Below are positions 28,935 through 58,850 of a DNA stretch of 64,000 bases, one piece after another. A program made the position numbers and the translations under genes. This stretch comes from Cenococcum geophilum 1.58 (taxonomy: Eukaryota > Ascomycota > Dothideomycetes > Gloniales > Gloniaceae): NCBI GenBank assembly GCA_001692895.1, contig KV748216.1, forward strand, positions 620,001 to 684,000, given 5' to 3'. Each line of letters begins with the position of its first letter. Within the stretch, counting starts at the first letter, position 1. The notes under the pieces were generated by a model, which saw only the letters and a program-made list of their open reading frames with translations, searched no databases and had not been told where the DNA came from.

Positions 28935-29813
28935 TATACTTACTCTATAATATTCCTCCTCTATAGCTATAGCCGCGGCTACCCCTATAGCTACCCCTAT
29001 GGCTACCTTTCCCCCTAGCTACTCTTCCGCCCGTTTAGCTATCTTCTACCTCTTTTTTACTCGCTTATTATCTTTCTATATCTTTTTCTATTTTAACTTA
29101 TATTTTTAATAGCTAGCGGCCTGTAATTCTTGGTTAATAACTTACTACTCTAAAAATATATAAAGCTTATCTTCCGTTACCTAGGCGCCGTCTATATTAC
29201 CTCTTAGTCTTATATACTAGCCTTCCTACTCTTTCTACTTTAGCTTATACGTCCTTATTATATTCTTTACACGCTAAGCCTTACAAATATTATATAGCCG
29301 CGCTGCCTAGGCCTTAAATTTGCTCTAGAGGCTATATAAGAAGGAGGAGGTTAAGGGGGCCTCCTTTAACCATAAAGTGGACTATATAGTAAGAAGGTTC
29401 TTAAAAGACTCTATATCTATAAGAGGTAAGGGAGAGATACGTAAGTGTAGCGTAGGTAAATAAAGTTACTAAATGGGTAAATATTAAAGAAGAAGAAGAA
29501 GAGGGCTCTGTATTATAGAATTAGAATTATAGTAGACCTTTTTATATAAAATTAGAAGCCTTATATAAGCCATTACAGGCACAAAAATAGAAAAAGGTTG
29601 AAAAATGGATTGTTAAGGTAACGATAAGGCTAAAGGCGCGCTAAGGCCCTCTATACTAAACTAGTACTAACCTAGGCCTTAAAAACGCGTCTAAAAAGTA
29701 GGGGCCACTACTTAAGAAGAGGGGGGGGTAATATTTAGATAATATATCGCGGACCTTAGGGGGTTATATATAACCTAAGGTTATACCAAGTTTAACCCGG
29801 ACCTCTAATACCT
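28935..29813 (-). mobile_element. Crypton copy 3, 3'-truncated and inverted
   Basis: This is a minus-strand match to the first ~870 bp of the tandem Cryptons at 49477 and 53027, including the leader and about the first 150 codons (counterpart of 49477 to ~50330). Its outer boundary carries the same junction word: read on its own strand it starts AGGTAT (29808-29813) followed by TAGAGGTCCGGGTTAAAC. It stops inside the coding region, next to the Gypsy-3 LTR. RIP is heavier than in copies 1 and 2, and the start ATG is ATA. Confidence 0.82.
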
Positions 29814-45484: not shown

Positions 45485-48360
45485 CTAAGCTCCTTTTAAT
45501 TTACCTACCTTTTTTACTAAAAAGCTAAATAGAGGACTATGTTTTTATATTAATTACTATAAGTTAAATAATATAACCCGTAAAGACCGCTATCTACTAC
45601 TCTTACTTAATAAAACACTAGGCTAAATAAATAGAGCTAAGGTCTTTACAAAGCTTATTATTCGCTAGGCTTTCTACTAAATTATAATAAACCCTAGCTC
45701 TAAAGATTTTATTATATTTTAGACCTATTACAGAACGTATAAATATAAGGTACTATTTTTTGGGCTAACTAACGGACCGGCTACGTATTAGCGGTATATA
45801 AATAATATACTTTTTAATTATCTTAATAACTTCTATACGGCCTACCTAGATAATATTATAATCTACTTTAAGAATAAGCTAAAATATAAGAAGTATATCT
45901 ATAAAGTCCTCTAATAGCTCCGCGAGGCTAGCCTCTAGGCTAATATTAAGAAGTTAGAGTTTAGTGTTAAACGTATAAAGTACCTAGGGTTTATTATTAG
46001 TATAAATAGAATTAAGACCAACCTAAAGAAAGCGGCCGTAATTATCTAGTAGGTACCCCTAAGGACCGTAAAGGGGGTATAATTATTCCTAGATTTATAT
46101 AACTTTTACTAACGCTTTATTAAGAACTACAGTAAGATTACTAAACTCCTTAACTACCTTACCCAAAAAAACCAGCCCTTTTACTTTAATGCTATATATA
46201 GGTAGGCCTTTAATAAAGCTTAAAAAACGGCTAGTCTTGGCTCCCCTATTTACCTACTTTACCCTAAAATAGCCCTTAATACTAGAAACTAATGCCTTAA
46301 ACAGTATAATAGATAGAATTTACTTCTGAAAGTAGACAGATAGAAACACCCTGTTTCTTACTATTTAAAGACTATAATAGATACTAAGCTAAACTATCTG
46401 ATTTACGATAAAGAAATGTTGGCTATTATCTCTAGCTTTTGGCACTAGCGAGCGCAGCTAAAAGGGACCCCTAAACCTATTTAGGTAGTTTTAGATTACT
46501 AAGCCTTAGAATATTTTATAATAATAATGGCCCTTATTCCTCGGCAGGCGCAATAGGCGGATATTCTATCTTAGTTTAACTTCTTAATTATATATAAGCT
46601 AGGCGCCACAAACCGTGCGGATGCCTTTATTAGGTATAGATAGGACCTAGACAACTAAGTAGCTATAAAGATCTTATTATAGACCTAAACGCTTTTATAT
46701 CTAGAATATCTTAACTCTTAAATATAGATAGAACTAAGTATAGACTCTATAGACAGCAAGATATATTCTATTAACTCTATAGAATTTAACCTTATTAATA
46801 AACTACTATAGATAAACCGTACGGCCCCTTCTCTATAGAAATACCGCAAAAAGATAAAGGGCGTTACTAGCCTATAGTCCCTTAAAAAAGGACTACTTAA
46901 GTACTATAAATAGATAGTAGTAGTAGAGGAATAGAACTTATAGACTTAGCTTATTACTAAAGTATATACCTAGATTTTTACAGCCTACCCTAGAGAGAAT
47001 AAACCTATAAGATTATTAGTAAACAATACTACTAGCCTAGAATAGTTATAAATATTAACTATTATATACGGAACTGTAATAACTACTATAGGTCTACAAT
47101 TCCACAAGATAGGACTTTAGAACTATTAAAACCCCTTTTAATACCAGAACGCCCCTAGTAGTATATCTTTATAAAGTTCTATAAACTACCTCTAGACTAT
47201 AACGGATATAATATAGTTATAATTCTAGTTAACTGCTTTAGCAAGCGCCTGTTCTTAATTCCCTATTATAAAAATATTAATGCTAAAGAGGCGGCCTAAC
47301 TATATATCTATTACGTCTACTAAATTTACGGGCCGCTAAATACTATTATATTTAATTACGGGCCGTAGTTTATATCGGCCTTCTAAAACAAGTTTACCTA
47401 GATTTTAGGCATTAAGCTAAAGCTTTCTATAGTATACTACCCCTAGATAGACGGTTAGACAAAGATTATAAATTAATACTTAAACTAAAGACTTTAGCCT
47501 TTTATTAACTACTTCTAGGATAACTAGGCCAAACTGCTACCCTTAATAGACTATACCTAAGTAATCTTGCCCCATAACTCTATAGGATTTACCTATATTT
47601 AACTAGAAATAGGCTACTTACTCTATATAAGCTTCGATTAGAATAGACTAAAAAAACCCTAAACTATACGCGAAAAACTATTCTATAAGGAAGCTTAGTA
47701 GTACGCTAAGCGCTTAGAAGAAGCCTAGGCAGTAGCTTATATAAACCTAAAAAAAGCCTAAAAATTAATAAAATAGTAGGCAGGTAAGTATAGACGCCAG
47801 CCTAACTTTACTATAGGCGATATAGTCTATGTTATAATAAAGAATTAGAAGACAGGACGGCTTAGCCATAAGCTAGATTATTAGATAGTAGGACTATATA
47901 AGGTCCTTAAGAAGAGGGGTAACTTATATAGGGCAAAGTTTCTAAATTTAATAAAGGTTTACCCTATCTATTTACCGGATGAGTTACGGAAAGCTATAGA
48001 TAACCTATTTCCTGGATAAAAGAATAAACCTCCCCTACTAATTTAAGTTAATGGCGACGACAAATAAGAAATTAAAGAAATACTAGCTTATAAACTAGTA
48101 AGGAGAACACTAAAATACCGCGTTAGTTAGAAAGGCCATAACCTAAATTCTACTTAGTACTCTATATAGAACTTTATTGGCAGTCTCTATAAGCTTTAAA
48201 AATTCTATAGCCGTTACCCTAATAAACTAAGATCCCTAAAGTACCTAGATAAATAGATAGAGTGCTAATATAGTAAAGATAATAAGCTATTAGAAGAATA
48301 TAAGCTTAAAAACGCCCTATAGGGGTAATATAGATATATAAAGCCTAAGAGCAGGCTTTA
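45485..48360 (+). pseudogene. Gypsy-4 pol: RT, RNase H, integrase
   Basis: Main body of the Gypsy-4 pol. Reverse transcriptase: NNITRKDRY near 45560-45590, then GLTNGPATYQRYINNILF near 45760-45815 and AYLDNIIIY near 45838-45865 (YLDD with Asn in place of the second Asp). YLGFIISIN follows near 45980. RNase H: YLIYDKEMLAIISSFWHQR near 46395-46455. Integrase follows from about 46900, with poorly readable core motifs and a VYPIYLPDE-like end near 47950-47980. TAG/TAA stops throughout. Confidence 0.82.
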
Positions 48361-48377
48361 CTAAGGGGGGGAGTTAA

Positions 48378-48595
48378 TATTACAGCACTAGTAGAAAATG
48401 GTAGAACCTAGCTGGCAGAACTTAGCAGAACTTTGCGGTTATATAATATAAAGATTTTATAAAATATTAAGCGGCGCTATTCTTTATCTCCTTTCCTTTC
48501 TCTAGCTTTAGATCCTTATTTATAGACAATCCAATTATATAGGCTTGCGCGTCCCTCTTGCCGTACTTATGCCTTAATTAATTAAGTCGCTAATA
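48378..48595 (+). repeat. Gypsy-4 3' LTR (218 bp)
   Basis: It is the partner of 42167-42384; the ACTTA duplication follows at 48596-48600, after which the Gypsy-1 copy 2 frame resumes. Confidence 0.92.
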
Positions 48596-48600
48596 ACTTA

Positions 48601-48842
48601 GATATAAATAGTTAAAACAACACAATGCTTTAATTAGCTAGGTTAAAGAAATACTAAAGTTCTATATAATCTATTACTAAAGCTATTACTTAAAATATTA
48701 TTTACCTTATATATATATATAACTATTTAAATTTAATATAATATAAATTGCCCATATTATAAACCTTAAACTAATATAATAAAGCTATAACTACTAATCA
48801 CGGTAATGAATATAAAGATATTATATTAAAACCTGTTAAAAT
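48601..48842 (+). pseudogene. Gypsy-1 copy 2 pol, last recognisable part
   Basis: It is collinear with the complement of about 19410-19190 (shared TAATTAGCT.GGTTAAAGAAATACT and AATATAATATAAATT). The match is lost where the LINE tail starts. It carries no readable motif by itself. Confidence 0.75.
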
Positions 48843-48861
48843 TTACATAATATAAGCAGCA

Positions 48862-49470
48862 TCCTTTATTTTTTTATTTTTTTTATATCCGTTGTATTAT
48901 ACTACGTATAATACTACGCATACAGCCTTAGGCTATAGCGCTATAGTTCTATATATATAAATCCTTTCTAGGCAGCTTAATATATACTAGTAGCTATATC
49001 CTAGTAGTTTATAACCCCCTAAGCTAGGAGTTTATAGTTCCTTAGTAAACTACTAAGTTACTACAACTACTAGAGAATAAGAAAACGGTAGGAAAAACTA
49101 TAAGAAATCCTAATACCTGTCCCTATCCTTTTGCTCTCTAATATCTTTTTAAGAGCCTAGTAGGAGTTGCCTTCTTCTAGAATCTTATTTATTTTATTCT
49201 TCTATAGAATCTCCTTTACTAGTACTATATACTAGTTTAGCTACTTTAAAAGTCTCGTAGTCTTTACTATTAGTAAAGTGTTTTTTTTTACAATTAATAT
49301 AAAGAGGGGTAGTATGCTTATAAGGCTTACCTATTTTTATATAGATAGAATAGGTATAGTTTTTAGATAGATATACAGCCGCATAATATCTATAGATCCT
49401 AGTAAAGTATCTGTCTCCTATATAGCCAAATTTTTGGCAGCTAGTGCACTGCGTAGTAGGAGAGACTTCG
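48862..49470 (-). mobile_element. LINE copy C: ORF1 zinc-knuckle fragment joined to 3' UTR
   Basis: A minus-strand LINE derivative with a T-rich left end (the tail) and the family 3' UTR to about 49190. The minus frame at 49470-49194 reads CTSCQKFGYIGDRYF, RYYAAVYLSKNYTYSIY and YINCKKKHFTNSKDYETFK. These are ORF1-type CCHC knuckles in which several Cys and His codons have become Tyr by RIP. The whole of ORF2 is absent between the knuckles and the 3' UTR. Upstream, the frame is interrupted at AGGTAT (49471) by the Cryptons and resumes at 56577. Confidence 0.75.
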
Positions 49471-49476
49471 AGGTAT

Positions 49477-49864
49477 CGGAGGTCCGGGTTAAGCTTGGCA
49501 TAACCTCGGGTTACGCACAAGCCCCTAAGGTCCTCAACATATCGTCCAAATATCGCACTCCCCCTAGGTGGTGGCCCCTACTTTTCGGACGCGTTTTTGA
49601 GGCCTAGGTTAGTACTAGGTTAGTATGGAGGGCCTTAGCGCGCCTTCGACCTTATTGTCGCCTCAATAATCCATTTTCCAACCCTCTACTGTTCTTGTGC
49701 CCGTGATGGCTTGCGTAGGGCTTCTAATTTTATATAGAAAGGCCTACCGTAATTCTAATTCTATAATATAGAGCTCTCTTCTTCTTCTCCTGTGATATTT
49801 ACGCGTTCAGTGGCTTTATTTACCCGCGCCGCGCTTATGCGTCTCCCCCTTACCTCTTGCGGAT
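49477..49864 (+). other. Crypton 1 leader (5' non-coding)
   Basis: About 390 bp between the AGGTAT core and the first ATG. It is shared with copy 2 and with the inverted copy at 29807-29430. It contains GGCATAACC/GGTTACGC inverted words near the left edge and a CTTCTTCTTCTCC run before the gene. No promoter motif can be named. Confidence 0.5.
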
Positions 49865-52575
49865 ATGGAGTCTTTTAAGAATCTTCTTACCCTATGGTCC
49901 ACTTTATAGCCAAAGGAAGCCCCCTTAGCCTCCCCCCCTTATAGCCTCTAGAGCGAATTTAAGGCCTAAACGGCGTGGCTATAGGATATTTATAAGGCCT
50001 AGCGCTTAAATAATACTATAAGGGCGTATAAGCTAAAGTAGAAAGAGTGGGAAGACTAGTGTATAAGACTGGAAGGCAATACGGACGGCGCCCGGGTAAC
50101 GGAAGATAAGCTTTACCTATTTCTAGAGTAGTAAGTTATTAACTAAGAATTATGGGCCGCTAGCTATTAAAAATGTAAGTTAAAATGGAAAGAGATATGG
50201 AAAGATAGTAAGCGGGCAAAGAAGAGGTAGAAGACGGCTAAGGCGGGAGGGTAGCTAGGGGGGAAGGCAGCCGTAGGGGCAGCCGTAGCTGTAGGGGAAG
50301 AAGCTATAAAGGATAAGGAAGAAGAGATATAGGACGAGGAGGCCCTAAATGCCCTTTTTAACAAAACAGTCCGATACTTAGTTATAAATAGCTACGTCTC
50401 CGCTATTACTAAGCTCTATATATAGCAATCGGAAGGTAAGGCCTCGTAGCCGCTATAGGGGGCAAAGCTCTTGGCGATACTAGATAGCATCCGCCGCGAT
50501 AAGAACTAGATTTAACGCGTTAACTTTATTAACCGAGGTTTATTTATAATTACTGGCGGCTATAACGTTAAAGGGCTTAAAAGGGTAATTACTTGGTACT
50601 AAGAGACGGGCTTTAAAATGCCGAGTTTAGTTAAGTTTTACCTTTAAACTGCGGCCGAGTATTTATTAGGTTCATATATTACTAGTTTATATAGCTACCG
50701 TTTTCTAACCTGTTCCTTTCCTTAGGCTATACTACCGTTACCTAGGGTAAAAGTAGACGGGACGTTTAGCTTGCTAACCTCGTCCTTATTAAACTAGAGA
50801 ACAAAGGGCCTAAACCGGATAAGCTAGCGCTATATATAATTATATCAATAATATAGGGGAAGTAGAATTAGTACGGCAAGGTTGAGTATATAGGCTATAT
50901 GCGTAATACTAACCCTATCCTCTACCCTCTCTCTATAATAGCCTTCTACTTCTTTAACTGCTAGGGTAAGGACGGCGCTAAAAGCTTCCTATCCTTTTAG
51001 TAGCTAGAGGACTACTATAACCTATATGTCTTCTCTAGCAGTATTAAAGTACCATAACGGCCGCTAAGCTATTATACGCAGTTTAAATGGAATAAGAAGA
51101 TATTCTAGGGGGTAGGGATTTATTTAAAAGAGAAGACCTATAGCGCCTATAAGTAGAGTATCCGGCACGCCGAGCTTAGCGGCGTTAAGGAGACCTAAAT
51201 TAGACGGGCCGGACGCTAAAATACGGACGCGATAATGGGAGCCTACCTTAGCTACCTACCCTATGCGTTTATATAATCGATCGCCGGCTTTCTAAAGAAG
51301 GAAAAGGGCTACTTTCTTCCCCGCGCGCGGGAGGTGCTAGAGAAGGCCCTCTGCTTAAAGATATGGCCTAAGACTAACGTCTGGCTAAAACGTATAGAGA
51401 CCTACCACCCAAACAGGGCTGATAATGAGGTCGTACGGCTTGACCTTACGGGCTTAGGATTTCTACGTCTCCTCCGTGCACTTAGGGTAATCCTATTATA
51501 GGACTTAATAATCCTATATAAGCAGTTCCCGCTCTACCCCCTATAGAAGAACTCCCTCTTTGGCTGCGAGGAGTACTAGAGGTTTACCGCGCAGGTAGAA
51601 AGCTTACTGGCTAACGTAGTTACGCCAAATGAACTAATAATATAGAAATACTGGCCCGCCTATAAGGCCGTAGCTAAGCTAAGATATAAGGCCGCAATCT
51701 TAGAAATTAAGGGGGTTTAGTTACACGTATATACGATCTTAGAACGCCTTAGCAAGATAGAAAGGTTATTAGCATTATTTATACCTACACCTATATAGAT
51801 CTAGTAAGGAAAGATAGGTATCTAGATAGGGCCTATAGAGTCCGTATATCTACCGTCTACTATAACGTCTACCATAACGTCTACCATATTTGCGCTACCT
51901 GCTTAGCTATCTACTATATCCGCACCGCCCGCTTAGCTGTCTACTATATCCGCACCCCCCGCTTTGCTATCTGCTATATCCGCACCCCCTACTTAGCTGT
52001 CTGCTATATCCGCACCCCCTACTTAGCTGTCTGCTATATCCGTACCCCCCGCTTAGCTGTCTACTATATCCGCACTACTTACTTAGCCATCTACTATATC
52101 CGCGCCACCCCCACTAGCGTAGGCGTAAGTAGATACTTAACTACCTTTCCTATTTATTCTTAACCTATAAGCGCTGCCAAGAAAATATAAGATGCTTTGG
52201 GGCGGCAATTTGGTATTCTAGCTCTAGGCTAAGTGGACTTTAGGGCTAGCGGGTAAGCCATTAATTGAAGCTCTTGATTGCTGCTAGGGGGCGCGCTAGT
52301 AGGTTAACGGCGAGGCTATATTCTATAGCCGTCGCCGTAGGATAATTAAGGATATAAGACGGCGCGTAGAAGACGGTATAGCAAGAGATAAGAGACAGGC
52401 TATTAACCAGCTAGAGCAGCTATGGGGCCGGCGTTCTTTAGATTAGCTTTATAAGAATATTTAACTGCTAGCTCTTAAGGCGGGGGAGGAAGGGAAAGGC
52501 TTTGTATTAAACAGTATATATATATATATAATACTATCTTACTATAGGACTACTACAGTGACTAAGACGCTTTAA
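49865..52575 (+). pseudogene. Crypton 1 tyrosine recombinase (Ndc10-like, GCR1_C-like)
   Basis: This is a decayed Crypton recombinase. ATG at 49865 (MESFKNLL) opens a frame that stays collinear across a predicted 56-bp intron at 50670-50725 (CTAAC branch site, CCTTAG acceptor; AAEYLLG|YTTVTQG at the joint). It ends near 52575, about 880 codons. All in-frame stops are TAG or TAA from Gln/Trp. The Ndc10-like catalytic part includes AFYFFN, then RHAELSGV and QIRRAGR near 51163-51228, and AYLSYLP, fitting the H-x-x-R and Tyr region of tyrosine recombinases. A 10-residue repeat linker (AQLSTISAPP x7, 51901-52110) follows. The C-terminal GCR1_C-like part reads FYSRRRRIIKDIRRRVEDG near 52321-52377. 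It should catalyse core-site recombination, but is dead here. Confidence 0.85.
51901..52110 (+). repeat. 30-bp x 7 in-frame repeat, Crypton 1
   Basis: Seven exact-length 30-bp units encode a Pro/Ser-rich 10-residue repeat in the recombinase frame. The same seven units occur in copy 2 at 55451-55660. The open frame crossing it in another phase is not a gene. Confidence 0.92.
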
Positions 52576-52788
52576 TGTAGGACTATACTATAGTAACTAA
52601 GACGTCTTGATATAGGACTACTGCAGTAACCGAGACGCCTTAATATAAGACTATACTGTAGTAACCGAGACGCCTTAATATAAGACTATACTATAGTGAT
52701 TAAGACGCCTTAATGCAGGACTATACTTTAGCGACCGAGACGTCTTAATATAGGACTATATTATAGTAACTAAGACGCCTTAATATAG
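52548..52788 (+). repeat. 33/35-bp x 7 minisatellite, Crypton 1
   Basis: Seven units of 33, 35, 33, 35, 35, 35 and 35 bp, built on GACTATACT.TAGTAAC.GAGACGCCTTAATATA. They start at the end of the recombinase frame and run into the 3' region. Copy 2 has the same at 56098-56338. Confidence 0.88.
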
Positions 52789-53020
52789 GAATGGCACGCG
52801 TTTAGGTGTTTAAAATTTAGAGTAATATTACGCAACCGTCTAGAAGTACTAATCTAACTTAAATTATGTACCTTTTTGCCCAAAATCGCGTGTAAAGGTA
52901 CTTGGGGGCGGTTGCTGCGCGACTGAGTGTGGGGTTCGCGCTAATTATCAGCAGGGGTGGCCCTAACCTCGTATTAACCTGGGCCGTAACTGAGCTAAAT
53001 GACCCCCCCTAATATATGAT
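52789..53020 (+). other. Crypton 1 3' region
   Basis: GC-rich compared with its surroundings. It contains ACCTTTTTGCCCAAAATCGC and an inverted pair ATTGGCGCGAACC/GGTTCGCGC-like words. No gene. It ends ATATGATAGGTAT at the junction with copy 2. Confidence 0.5.
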
Positions 53021-53414
53021 AGGTATTGGAGGTCTAGGTTAAGCTTGGCATAACCTTGGGTTACGCACAAGCCCCTAAGGTCCTCGACATATCGTCTAAA
53101 TATCGCACCCCCCCTAGGTAGTGGCCCCTACTTTTTGGACGCGTTTTTAAGGCCTAGGTTAGTACTAGGTTAGTATAAAGGGCCTTAGCGCGCCTTCGAC
53201 CTTATTATTGCCTCGATAATCCATTTTCCAACCCTCTACTGTTCTTGTGCCCGTGATAGCTCGTGTAGGGCTTCTAATTTTATATAGAAAGGCCTACCGT
53301 AATTCTAATTCTATAATATAGAGCTCTCTTCTTCTTCTCCTATAATATTTACGCGTTTAGTAGCTTTATTTACCCGCGCCGCGCTTATATGTCTCCCCCT
53401 TACCTCTTGCGGAT

Positions 53415-56125
53415 ATAGAGTCTTTTAAGAATCTTCTTACCCTATAGTCCACTTTATGGCCAAAGGAAGCCCCCCTAGCCTCCCCCCCCTATAGCCTCTA
53501 GAGCGAATTTAAGGCCCAGACGGCGCGGCTATAGGATATTTATAAGGCCTAGCGCTTAAAGAATACTATGAGGGCGTACGAGCTAAAGCAGAAAGAGTAG
53601 GAAAACTAGTACATAAGACTAGAAGGTAATACGGACGGCGCCCAAGTAACGGAAGATAAGCTTTACCTATTTCTAGAGCAGCAAGTTATTAACCGAGAAT
53701 TATAGGCCGCTAGCTATTAAAAACGTAAGTTAAAATAGAAAGAGATATGGAAAGATAGTAAGCAGGCGAAAAAGAGGCAGAAGACGGCTAAGGCGGGAGG
53801 GCAGCTAGGGGGGAAGGCAGCCGTAGGGGTAGCCGTAGCTGTAGGGGAAGAAGCTATAAAGGATAAGGAAGGAGAGATATAGGACGAGGAGGCCCTAGAT
53901 GCCCTTTTTAACGAGATAGTCCGATACTTAGTTATAAATAGCTACGTCTCCGCTATTACTAAGCTCTATACATAGTAATTAGAAGGCAAAGCCTCGTAGC
54001 CGCTGTAGGGGGCGAAGCTCTTGGCGATACTAGACAGTGTCCGCCGCGATAAGGACCGGATTTAATGCGTTAACTTTATTAACTAAGGTCTATTTATAAT
54101 TACTAGCGGCTACGACGTTAAAGGGCTTAAAAGGGCGATTACTTAGTACTGGGAGACGGGCTCTAAAATGCCGGGTTTAGTCAAGTTTTACCTTTAAACT
54201 GCGGCTAAGTATTTATTAGGTTTGTATATTACTAGTCTATATAGCTACCATTTTCTAACCTGTTTTTTTCCTTAGGCTATACTATTATTACCTAGGGTAA
54301 AAGTAGATGGGATATTTAGCTTGCTAATTTTGTCCTTATTAAACTAGAGAACGAAGGGCCTAAACCAGATAAGCTAGCGCTGTATATAATTATATTAATA
54401 ATATAGGGGAAGCAGAATTAGCACGGCAAGGTTGAGTATATGGGCTGTATGCACAATACTGACCCTATCCTCTGCCCTCTCTCTATAATAGCCTTCTACT
54501 TCTTTAACCGCTAGGGTAAGAACGGCGCTAAGAGCTTCCCATCCTTTTAGCAGCTAAAGGACTACTATAACCTATATATCTTCCCTGGCAGTATTAAAGT
54601 ACCGTAACGGCCGCTAAGCTATTATACGCAGTTTAAATGGAATAAGAAGATGTTCTAGGGGGTAGGGATTTACTTAAAAGAGAAGACCTATAGTGCCTAT
54701 AAGTAGAGCGTCCGGTACGCCGAGCTTAGCGGCGTTAAGGAGACCTAAATTAGATGGGCCGGACGCTAGAATACGGACGCGATGATGGGAGCCTACCTTA
54801 GCTACCTACCCCGTGCGTTTATGCGGTCGATCGCCGGCTTCCTAAAGGAGAGAAAGGGCTACTTTCTTCCCCACGCGTGGGAGGTGCTAGAGGAGGCCCT
54901 CTGCTTAAAGATATAGCCCAAGACTAACGTCTAGCTAAAACGCATAGAGACCTACTACCTAGACAGGGCTGATAATAAGGTCGTATGGCTTAACCTTACG
55001 GGCTTAGGATTTCTATGTCTTCTTTATACGCTTAAGGTAATCCTATTATAGGACTTAGTAATCCTATATAAGTAGTTCCCGCTCCACCCCCTATAGAAGG
55101 ACTCCCTCTTTAGCTGTAAGGAGTACTAGAGGTTCACCGCACGGGTAGAAAGCTCGCTGGTTAACGTAGTTATGCTAAATAAACTAATAATGCGGAAATA
55201 CTAGCCTACCTATAAGGCTATAGCTAAGCTAAGACATAAGGCCGCAATCTTAGAGATTAAGGGGGTTTAGTTGCACGTATATACGATCTTAGAACGCCTT
55301 AGCGAGATAGAAAGGTTATTAGCATTATTTGTACCTGTACCTATATAGATCTAGTAAGGAAAGATAGGTATCTAAATAGGGCCTACGGAGTCCGTATATC
55401 CACCGTCTACCATAACGTCTACTATAACGTCTACTATATCTGCGCCACTTGCTTAGCTATCTACTATATCCGCACCGCCCGCTTAGCTATCTACTATATC
55501 CGCACCCCCCGCTCCGTTATCTGCTATATCTGCACCCCCTGCTTAGCTATCTGCTATATCTGCACCCCCTACTTAGCTGTCTACTATATCCGCACCCCCT
55601 ACTTAGCTGTCTACTATATCCGTACCACCCGCTTAGCCATCTACTATATCCGCGCCGCCCCCGCTAGCGTAGGTGTAAGTAAATACTTAACTACCTCTCC
55701 TATTTATTCTTAACCTATAGGCGCTGCTAAGAAAATATAAGATGCTTTAGGGCGGCAATTTGGTATTCTAGCTCTGGGCTAAGTGGACTTTAGGGCTAGC
55801 AGGTAGGCCGTTAATTGAAGCTCTTAATTGCTGCTAGGGGGCGCGCTGGCGGGTTAACAGCGAGGCTATGTTCTATAGCCGTCGCCGTAGGATAATTAAG
55901 GATATAAGACGGCGCGTAGAAGATGGTATAGTAAGAGATAAGAGACAGGCTATTGACCAGCTAGAGCAGCTATAGGGCCAGCGTTCTTTAGATTGGCTTT
56001 ATAAGAATATCTAACTGCTAGCTCTTAGGGCGGGGGAGGGAGGGAAAGGCTTTATATTAAATAGTATATATATATATGTAATACTATCTTACTATAGGAC
56101 TACTATAGTAACCGAGACGCTTTGA
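53415..56125 (+). pseudogene. Crypton 2 tyrosine recombinase
   Basis: This is the direct repeat of the gene at 49865-52575, shifted by exactly 3550 bp. The start codon is ATA instead of ATG, a G-to-A change typical of RIP. The predicted intron lies at 54220-54275. Motif segments are the same (RHAELSGV then QIRRAGR, AYLSYLPRAF, SRRRRIIKDI), and the 30-bp repeat is at 55451-55660. Some stops are at different Gln/Trp codons from copy 1, so the two copies were mutated independently after duplication. In some places this copy keeps the presumed ancestral C/G and in others copy 1 does. Confidence 0.85.
55451..55660 (+). repeat. 30-bp x 7 in-frame repeat, Crypton 2
   Basis: It is collinear with 51901-52110. 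The unit count is the same, so no slippage has occurred since the duplication. Confidence 0.92.
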
Positions 56126-56338
56126 TGTAGGACTGTACTGCAGTAACTAAGACGTCTTAATATAGGACTACTGCAGTGACTGAGACGCCTTAATATAAGA
56201 CTATACTGCAGTAACCAAGACACCTTAATATAAGACTATACTATAGTGACTAAGACGCCTTAATGCAGGACTATACTCTAGTGACTAAGACGTCTTAATA
56301 TAGGACTATATTATAGTAACTAAGACGCCTTAATATAG
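56098..56338 (+). repeat. 33/35-bp x 7 minisatellite, Crypton 2
   Basis: It is collinear with 52548-52788, with the same pattern of unit lengths. Several C/T differences between the copies fall in the GACGCC and GTAACCGAG words. Confidence 0.88.
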
Positions 56339-56576
56339 GAATGGCACGCGTTTAGGTGTTTAAAATTTAGAGCAATATTACGCGACCGTCCAGAAGTACT
56401 GATCTAACTTAAATTATGTACCTTTTTGCCCAAAATCGCGTGCAAAGGTACTCGGGGGCGATCGCTGCGCGACCGAGTGCGGGGTTCGCGCCAATTATCA
56501 GCAGGGGTGGCCCTAACCTCGTATTAACCTGGGCCGTAACCGAGCTAAATGACCCCCCCTGATATGTGATAGGTAT

Positions 56577-57000
56577 CTACACGATGGCCCGCGCGCTGTC
56601 ACGTGACACGCCGCTGAGCTTAAAGAGACTGCCCTAAGTACCCCCCCCTACTAACAGATTATATAGGTGCCTTAATAGGAGAATAGCGTAGCTAAATTGT
56701 AGAGGGCCATAGTAGTGGTTTTCGAGATCTCACTATCTAAAAAATTTTCACCACCGCCTATAACGCTTACAACCACGACCACTAGGTCCTATCGCACGCT
56801 ATATAACGTCTTTGCGTTGGCTCTAAGTCTGAACTTTAAAGACCTAGGTTCGTAGCCGTCACCACGTATAGGTGCAAAGTCCGTTTTTAACGGCCTAATA
56901 TTATATATCATAGCTAAATAAGATAGACTCTTAATAATTATAATCTCTAAAATAGATAAGTGTATTATAGTAAAGACAACCTAATTTATAAAGCCTAGTA
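56577..57000 (-). other. Right flank of the Crypton pair (interrupted LINE ORF1-like frame)
   Basis: The minus frame at 56640-56577 (SLSSAACHVTARGPSC) joins across one AGGTAT to YLEVSPTTQCTSCQKFG at 49470. An uninterrupted ORF1-like frame is therefore restored if the Cryptons are left out. The first ~75 bases are GC-rich and unmutated; an 8-C run lies near 56642. Further right the sequence becomes AT-rich with no clear motif. Confidence 0.5.
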
Positions 57001-58850
57001 ATCCTAGTTTCTATCCCTTTTAGGCTAGTAGTTAATTAATACTAATCCGTAATCTAGATTTTAAGGGGTTATTTAGTTATAATCTATTACTTTTAAATCT
57101 GAACTAAAAGTCTGGTAAAAAAAAACGTATTCCTTCCCGATTTAATACACGTTTATAACTTTATAGGTTATATAGATATATGCAATCTAAAGCCTTTAGA
57201 TTTAATTTAGAGTTTAAATAAGGAGCTTTAAGCTCCTAATTTAAACTAACGCCAAGACCTTAGTTTAGATTCTGTATATAGTAAGTTGCCAACTTTTTAG
57301 TAACTTTTAGCGTGTTTTTTAGAATATTAAAAATTTATAGCTAAAGTTAAGTTAAACTAGAATTTAACGGAACGGTTACCTTAGAATTAGATTAGAGCTT
57401 TAAATTAACTCTATTTTAAAGCCCTTATTCTAATTTAAACTTATAACTAAACGTTCCCTAAGTACTTAACCAGTTAGATTATAGTCTAGACATCTCGCTA
57501 ATAACCGCAACTATTATTAATTACTCTCCGTATAGTATAGGCCGCCTCTATTTTTGCTAAACTATAATAGCCTTAAATAGGATCTAATCCTTTTCTTGCT
57601 ATAGCTGCCGCTAAGGTAATATAACCTAACGCCCTCTCTTACTTATATTGGGTATGCTATTCCTAATATTAGTACGCTGTTACTATATCTTAAGAAACTT
57701 GTCGCTAATGCTATAGGCCCTTAGAATGATACTTATCTTACTATACTAGCTACTAGCTAGTAAAATATAGGACAAATATAATGTTTATATAGTTGCCCCT
57801 AATAGAAGAGCCTATAGTAAAGGCAATTCGCTATACTATATTTGGATAACCTAAGATTGTATATACAGGTAATAATTTTAGGGCTTCCTAGTGTAATAGG
57901 AGGTCTTACTATAAGGCAAACTTAACTAAAGTTACTATCTCTACGTAGATTAGATTAACTGTAATTAATTAATACCTTTTAGCTCGCCTAGCGAAATATA
58001 TCGCGCTAAAGATAGGGCTAGATAAACGTTAGTAATATATTATAATTACAACAGATACCTATATACCATCTCTATAGATAGCCGTAAATATAACCTAGCC
58101 CACCCTATAATAAACTGCCCTTAATAGAGTAGCCCTTAAGGCCCTATTGTTTCGGATAGGCATAGTCTCTATATAGGCGGCCTATATCTACTTCTTATTA
58201 CAATCTACCCCGGCCTCTAAAAACATCTTAACTAGTAGCTGATATTTGACTATACGTAGGTCTTAAGGCGCATTAGATAGTAATACTAAACTTAAGGCTA
58301 TATCTATACTTAGGACTAAGTTTATACTATCTAGTTTCCGCCTATAAAGTAGTATAATAAGTTGTTTAAGATTATAGCCGCAGTTCTATATATGGTTAAG
58401 CTGGAATAAACTCTATAAGTTTACGGTAGCCGTATACCCCCTTTTCGTATTTACTATATAGTTAATACTAGGCCGCCCTAGTACCTTTATCTTCTTATAT
58501 ATATTTAACTATATACGGGCTAGCATATTCTATATAGCCTTATATACCTATAACGCTAGTACCTTCTTATATTCCACTACTTAATGGATAACTTTTTAGA
58601 TCGCCTACTCGCGTAGCAAATTGTTTAGTTATTTGCAAAATAAAACATATAGGATGCCGTCCTTAATAATAACCTGCTTAAAAGTCCGCTTAATAGTATT
58701 AAGTCTCTCCATAGTAATGCCTAAGCTAGTAATAAGCTATATATCTTTTTACGGGTCTGTGGCGCTTACAGGGTTATACTATACCGTATTTACGGCATAC
58801 CGCTGTTATATATCGCGTCCTATTGTAAAAAATAGTCTAGTATCCTAAGT
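57001..58850 (-). pseudogene. Unrecognised decayed reading frame
   Basis: I do not recognise this. On the minus strand, reading RIP stops as Gln/Trp, the frame is fairly continuous from about 58840 to 57540. Examples are MERLNTIKRTFKQVIIKDG near 58710-58655, YKKIKVLGRPSINYIVNTKR near 58500-58440, and DLRIVKYQLLVKMFLEAGVD near 58265-58205, followed by an AAYIETMPIRNNRALRATLL segment. The LEAGVD text resembles an ankyrin helix but one unit is not enough. It may be a second gene of the neighbouring Plavaka element or an unrelated captured gene. The 57001-57540 part is not readable. Confidence 0.35.

Follow-up and report, generated by a model that had tools for sequence, protein, structure and literature searches.

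Head-to-tail CryptonF arrays joined at AGGTAT in the genome of Cenococcum geophilum: probable site-specific insertion favoring the ends of kin

CryptonF transposons of fungi and oomycetes encode a protein that combines a tyrosine recombinase (YR) with a GCR1_C domain, and a circular intermediate has been proposed for them (Kojima and Jurka, 2011; PMC3212892). In the portion of that study considered here, most fungal Cryptons carry 6-bp terminal direct repeats and tandem Cryptons are not named; Crypton movement has so far been argued there by analogy, from short repeats and presumed circles (PMC3212892). In bacteria, the strand-biased circularizing integrative elements (SEs) carry along the word lying to the left of the donor copy, which comes to lie to the right of the element after it moves, according to the sections seen of their description (PMC9345347). 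The present analysis concerns a 64,000-nucleotide stretch of Cenococcum geophilum 1.58 (assembly GCA_001692895.1, contig KV748216.1, positions 620,001 to 684,000 of the forward strand; hereafter, the window), in which two Crypton copies stand head to tail, together with the family to which they belong, which was searched in the 177-Mb genome of the same fungus. This is probably a CryptonF family degraded by repeat-induced point mutation (RIP), whose circles would enter AG|NTAN words through site-specific recombination, with a strong preference for the ends of kin.

The two units of the window occupy positions 49471-53020 and 53021-56570 of the plus strand, each of 3550 bp. The word AGGTAT stands at 49471-49476 (left word of copy 1), at 53021-53026 (left word of copy 2 and head-to-tail junction word) and at 56571-56576 on the plus strand (right boundary word, native to a flanking repeat, X). 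The geometry put forward in the original prediction, with bodies of 3544 bp, a period of 3550 bp and AGGTAT at 49471, 53021, and 56571, was confirmed base for base. Both units align from end to end without gaps and with 292 mismatches (91.8% identity), of which 291 are transitions and one is a transversion, a transition-dominated pattern that we take to be that of RIP. As for the inverted third copy reported in the window, a truncated one on the minus strand (28990-29813), the word is indeed found at its left boundary (ATACCT at 29808-29813, i.e., AGGTAT inverted), but its homology to the Crypton, from 29813 to 28990 and at 82%, is limited to about 813 bp of the left part.

Tandem Cryptons had been described as rarely captured in sequence. 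This is not the case in the genome searched, where 59 arrays hold the 80 junctions (a single junction in 41 of them, two in 15, and three in 3), the array size being at least 2-4 copies. Junctions were counted with a motif of 35 places (right end, AGGTAT, and left end, at most one mismatch), which had 80 matches genome-wide against none for the reversed pattern used as control; the left-end motif had 272 (control 0) and the right-end motif 248 (control 11), and all three counts are blind to ends that depart from the motif at two or more places. About three in ten Crypton left ends adjoin the right end of another copy. The DNA searches scored the best 26 of 433 candidates for the element and the best 40 of 502 for the junction; with the 300-bp junction query, 39 of these best 40 span positions 1-300 and one spans 2-300. 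AGGTAT occurs 92 times on both strands of the window, which scales to approximately 250,000 occurrences genome-wide, so that very few of these words belong to Crypton ends and a random choice among them would almost never reach one. At the level of these word counts, head-to-tail abutment at AGGTAT is shown to be far commoner than random choice allows. In addition, the word recurs genome-wide inside 14-bp tandem repeats of the type AGGTATAGATAGGT, a large possible pool of target words, and a tail-to-tail pair has been found at G000:C21:1969507-1969595, where two right ends face each other with about 40 bp between them. No report of tandem Cryptons was found among the open-literature records listed (including the parts considered of PMC3212892, PMC4522978, and PMC3599309), subscription literature being mostly outside this scope; in the same parts, Crypton elements fall below the cut-off of 10 used in PMC4522978, and PMC3599309 found a single Crypton on one chromosome, with further ones on other accessory chromosomes.

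The words at the outer boundaries of the copies differ between both sides. On the left, AGGTAT is present in 16 of 18 loci, the exceptions being AGTTAT (locus C31) and ATGTAT (C24; locus labels are our own, and C41 is the window tandem). On the right, the words of 19 loci are AGGTAT in 6, AGATAT in 7, AGGTAG in 2, and AGCTAG, AGATAC, AGATAA, and AGATCT in one each (16/18 versus 6/19, p = 6e-4), with A1, G2, and T4 kept in all of them. Among the genome-wide exact left-end matches, three have AGATAT and two AGTTAT. The right-end motif admits just AGATAT and AGGTAT, and letters were read for 26 of 140 right ends. Ten of these 26 are junctions, and the other 16, which are outer ends, comprise 12 with AGATAT and 4 with AGGTAT, to be compared with 3 AGATAT left ends and the 100 AGGTAT left ends listed out of 272 (p = 8e-11). 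At 77 of 80 junctions the word is AGGTAT, and junction words resemble the left words, not the right ones (p = 8e-7, counting words that differ from AGGTAT by no more than one letter). At C31, the private word AGTTAT, for which there is no further exact match genome-wide, occupies the left and middle boundaries, and AGGTAT the right one. The five bases to the left of the word have no sequence in common among the 17 outer left ends tallied, which speaks against a recombination overlap upstream of AG. Therefore, one symmetrical core at every boundary, as originally proposed, is not what the family displays: the words at both termini stand at the same position and are related, yet the outer right word is AGGTAT in just 6 of 19 loci. 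As judged by comparing sequences, the element brings its own left word, the target supplies the right one, and AGGTAT is not a target duplication.

Empty sites give the same answer. C66 lies in an abundant repeat, and a query that contained its joined flanks together with those of five other loci gave 40 listed matches, all of which span the C66 join. The two empty paralogues read have GAGAAGG AGATAT ACTAGATAG (C23) and AAAAGG AGATAT ACTAGATAAT (C11), while at the filled site GAGAAGG AGGTAT precedes the element and AGATAT ACTAAATAG follows it. The five other loci in the joined-flank query had no match among those listed, and C46 was excluded from the joined-flank and flank searches. Another example is C7a, in repeat X, where two other X copies have the empty word AGATAC, and a third one is C16x, in a 30-bp tandem repeat whose neighboring units have AGATGC. 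In both filled sites the left word is AGGTAT and the right one AGATAT, the latter departing from the empty word by transitions, which could come from RIP or from variation of the repeats. The comparison of empty and filled sites indicates that insertion puts AGGTAT and the body ahead of the target's own AG word; the sequences show that it does so with no duplication and, at these three clean sites, with no loss. The original refuting condition, empty sites with a boundary that fails to match AGGTAT, thus had a mixed outcome: the boundary falls exactly at the position of the word, but the empty words are AGATAT, AGATAC, and AGATGC. This narrows the model to a shared AG with a variable remainder, and the model survives. 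A conventional transposase making a 6-bp target-site duplication could be invoked because AGGTAT flanks the window pair on both sides and is native in both flanking repeats. However, C66 alone rules the duplication out (empty AGATAT; filled AGGTAT and AGATAT), the target word is on the right side only at C66, C7a, and C16x, left and right words are unequal at most loci, and the element has a tyrosine-recombinase domain and no terminal inverted repeats, all of which leaves this explanation a negligible probability.

The descent of neighboring copies was judged from transversions, because RIP makes transitions useless for this purpose. A first division into A-type and non-A copies could be made at 75 of the 80 junctions (left out: L103 at C21, C20:896416, C23:683410, C30:113791, and C34:635457), and gave 13 A-A, 61 non-A/non-A, and one mixed junction. 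Neighbors therefore fall on the same side of the split at 74 of 75 junctions, versus about 53 expected; shuffling predicts 22 mixed junctions, with a minimum of 9 in 100,000 shuffles, versus the single one observed. The non-A copies are a mixed group, and a finer test used 44 of their junctions, one per array, after dropping L056 and L082, in which one end is not homologous. The left-end and right-end types of neighbors agree within this group too, with a Mantel r of 0.20 reached by 4 of 20,000 permutations. Some array partners have private transversions in common, two in the window tandem and one each at C31 (the word AGTTAT itself), C3, and C43, and none is shared in the 77 non-array pairs among 13 A-type copies. 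This is what would be expected if arrays arrived whole as dimeric or multimeric circles, produced for instance by rolling-circle or unresolved replication and inserted once at an ordinary AGNTAN, and the small size of the arrays (2-4 copies) suits this explanation as well. Against it, partners at C68, C12, C1, and C16 have no private changes in common, and a multimer of one copy could not give the heterotypic array described below; as an account of the whole family it is rather unlikely, and for some arrays it can be combined with the mechanism favored below. Given their two private transversions, the window copies are fitted equally well by a dimeric circle or by the re-insertion of a sister circle.

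The heterotypic array is C32, where an A-type copy is joined flush at AGGTAT to a C15-type copy, with 11 transversions over positions 51-514; the downstream piece, of 682 bp, has no transversion with respect to C15. Two other candidates for heterotypic neighbors, C51 and C43, were withdrawn, since their transversions cluster in a non-homologous edge (positions 837-978 and beyond 1122, respectively). C32 also bears on homologous recombination, by which excised circles would enter resident copies through one crossover anywhere in the body, leaving flush copies that have a single word between them. The lineage agreement seen at 74 of 75 junctions is what a step driven by homology would produce, and for the identical sisters of C41 and C31 both routes are indistinguishable. 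At C32, however, the upstream copy is of A-type along 3.5 kb, and from position 51 onward the downstream copy is of C15-type, so that a homologous crossover would need to sit at the very end; the inversion at C4 (see below) breaks at 6-bp words. We consider this route improbable. Still less probable, and by a wide margin, is the local duplication of a solo copy with its word by unequal crossing over or replication slippage: it agrees with the sister relationship of the window copies, but it leaves C32 unexplained and would have to find the same breakpoint word in 59 arrays, 6-bp words being short for homologous exchange. Insertion of a circle beside a resident copy, the origin first suggested for the window tandem, is thus best shown at C32; elsewhere it is inferred, and at the window it shares the data equally with the two alternatives given above. 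More generally, core-directed insertion in the manner of a circle is supported by the exact empty site at C66 and by the C32 junction, flush at the core.

The locus C4 bears on the enzyme. In this locus, a copy lying downstream of another one has its first 649 bp, approximately, inverted, and the inverted segment breaks at the left AGGTAT and, inside the copy, at an AGGTAA in inverted orientation. For homologous recombination 6-bp words are short, and for this reason the inversion is read as a product of the recombinase; it would be the best sign that the enzyme uses stray AGNTAN words. The composite (L043:112-7221, G000:C4:685812-692921, 7.1 kb) is present twice in tandem, as judged by end positions. 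The relative age of the arrays is suggested by the CG that follows the word, which is un-RIPed in 3 of 29 junction left ends versus 42 of 71 other listed left ends (p = 6e-6). The RIPed junction ends point to arrays already present when RIP acted, and they also weigh against misassembly. An assembly artefact, in which solo copies or ends would have been misjoined or duplicated, finds some room in the arrays near contig ends (C51 from 3171, C68 from 8190) and in the scattered N of some copies; nevertheless, the 292 differences between the window copies, the 80 junctions, and the RIP of junction ends where outer ends escaped it make this extremely improbable.

The flanks of the window tandem tell of later changes. 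On the left, repeat Y (49351-49470), presumably LINE-like (long interspersed nuclear element) and with a zinc knuckle, is known from other copies that run on through AGGTAT TTTACTACC, two of them reading ...GACTTCG AGGTAT TTTACTACC. On the right, repeat X (56571-56656) has the native form ...CCCCGAGA AGGTATCTACACGATGG; the search for it listed the best 40 of 278 candidates. The tandem thus joins two unlike repeats, each interrupted at its native AGGTAT, and since the word is native in both, the outer words at the window cannot separate element from target. In repeat X such words overlap on the two strands (AGGTATCT / AGATACCT), and the repeat has been invaded in both orientations (window and C7a); it is a possible insertion hot spot. 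The missing half of the repeat was sought in about 1.5 kb of flank at C25, C79, and C2 and in the window for C41, and only matches of chance length (11-20 bases) were found. The simplest explanation for such discordant flanks would be ectopic homologous recombination between dispersed copies, which is preferred because each flank ends at a native word; the recombinase may instead have deleted or transduced neighboring DNA, but no such claim is made. With its discordant flanks, the window tandem cannot be taken as the unaltered result of a single event. Regarding other loci, the flank searches of C9 and C7b matched their own loci only, one of the two copies read of the repeat beside C79 has GGACAT instead of AGATAT, and a small inverted-repeat-like element is suggested in the left flank of the C25 copy (about 400 bp), with its end flush with the Crypton word.

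The identity of the element had to be read from a less damaged copy. The sole open reading frame (ORF) of at least 80 amino acids listed in 48000-58000 straddles the left edge of copy 1, extending into the flank, which means that the coding region is broken in both window units. By contrast with these, C79, the full-length copy with the highest GC content (0.535), has ORFs of 286 and 542 amino acids, about 110 bp apart. The second one contains NDC10_II (E = 7.5e-47) and GCR1_C (E = 4.4e-13, above the curated cut-off) in Pfam, and neither ORF has any other domain above cut-off. On the strength of these two domains the window unit is assigned to CryptonF, in agreement with the Crypton identity first proposed. 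The C79 ORF also contains HSAR ... RRAGRW ... Y, which, as judged by eye, may be catalytic residues of the R-H-R-Y set. Compared by sequence with solved structures, the C79 protein had no significant relative (best E = 0.74), and 14 inverted pairs were found in the element, none of them at the termini. By transfer from C79 over the equal length of 3550 bp, the degraded first ORF of copy 1 would lie at 49865-50725 on the plus strand (element 395-1255) and the second one at 50836-52464, plus strand (element 1366-2994), with the NDC10_II tyrosine-recombinase region and GCR1_C near its end. Between both domains there is a 30-bp tandem repeat (51901-52111 in copy 1, plus strand; 55430-55653 in copy 2), a repeated decapeptide in the C79 ORF that varies in length among copies; the lengths of the full-length copies (3490, 3521, 3550, and 3580) probably differ by units of this repeat. 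Close to the right end, and not within the ORFs, there is also a tandem repeat of 35 bp (52538-52790 in copy 1, plus strand; 56088-56340 in copy 2), which could provide candidate binding sites for the recombinase or accessory proteins.

Taken together, the mechanism we favor starts from a circle that would carry the right end of the element, AGGTAT, and the left end. The tyrosine recombinase would cross this circle with an AGNTAN target just 5' of, or within, the shared AG, leaving the left word with the element and the target's word at the right; either an overlap of about 2 bp or one of 6 bp with exchange of a single strand would serve. New or dimeric circles would prefer, as insertion sites, the half-sites that flank a resident sister copy, building arrays of 2-4 copies that RIP mutated afterwards, and the window tandem would have the same origin, its flanks, from different places, having been joined later, most simply by ectopic homologous recombination. 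In its narrower form, this reading proposes polar recombination at AG on the left edge of the word, with the left word inherited, the right word as the footprint of the target, and circles homing to sister ends, so that arrays arise by self-targeting; this form is tentative, somewhat short of an even call, and for most arrays the data do not decide between sister half-site insertion and dimeric circles. Several observations weigh against the favored mechanism. The agreement of lineages within the non-A group is weak (r 0.20), four of the eight arrays tested have no private transversion in common, and just one of 75 junctions (C32) is heterotypic; the homotypy could come from activity waves of one lineage or from homologous recombination. 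All the Crypton ORFs of the window are broken, circles and recombinase activity are presumed, and the first catalytic arginine was not located in C79. Finally, insertion is clean at three of the eight loci judged (C66, C7a, and C16x), flanks are discordant at C41, C2, C79, and C25, and C15 is without 122 bp of its Y target between AGATCT and AGATAT.

When set beside the known systems, the family shares with the CryptonF elements, to the extent of the sections considered, the YR and GCR1_C protein, the size of about 3.5 kb, the lack of terminal inverted repeats, and a short word at both ends; it differs in its hundreds of ends and tandem arrays, and in a left word that is fixed and a right one that follows the target, instead of a simple direct repeat. 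Membership of the Starship elements, which have a captain-type recombinase (DUF3435) and cargo, was rejected, since Pfam gives NDC10_II and GCR1_C instead and the element is of 3.5 kb. The likeness to the SEs, as far as their description was covered, lies in a tyrosine-recombinase element with one flanking 6-bp word carried and the other belonging to the target, and the version with a 6-bp overlap and one-strand exchange resembles them. However, the carried word of SEs goes to the opposite side and their words turn over, whereas in this family the left word stays left and is inherited (C66); SEs also have several core genes and one or two copies per replicon. Assignment to the SEs was likewise rejected, given that at C66 the target word stays right and the element word left, and that the 3.5-kb element has only NDC10_II and GCR1_C above cut-off, versus intA, tfp, intB, and srap. 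In the coupling sequences of Tn916-type elements, the overlap is of six bases, element and target need not match, and circles carry a heteroduplex of both words; the overlap words may differ in both systems, but the left words hardly vary in the Crypton family. Another link is the tandem accretion of bacterial integrative elements such as ICESt1, which also stack head to tail at att sites; these are prokaryotic, with one conserved att site per element, whereas here a eukaryotic transposon uses a short degenerate target. The element ends, empty paralogues, AGTTAT-marked lineage, and core-to-core inversion of this genome are enough to infer the position of the crossover from sequence, and, judging by the arrays, a eukaryotic transposon with a recombinase may be able to stack upon itself as bacterial integrative elements do.

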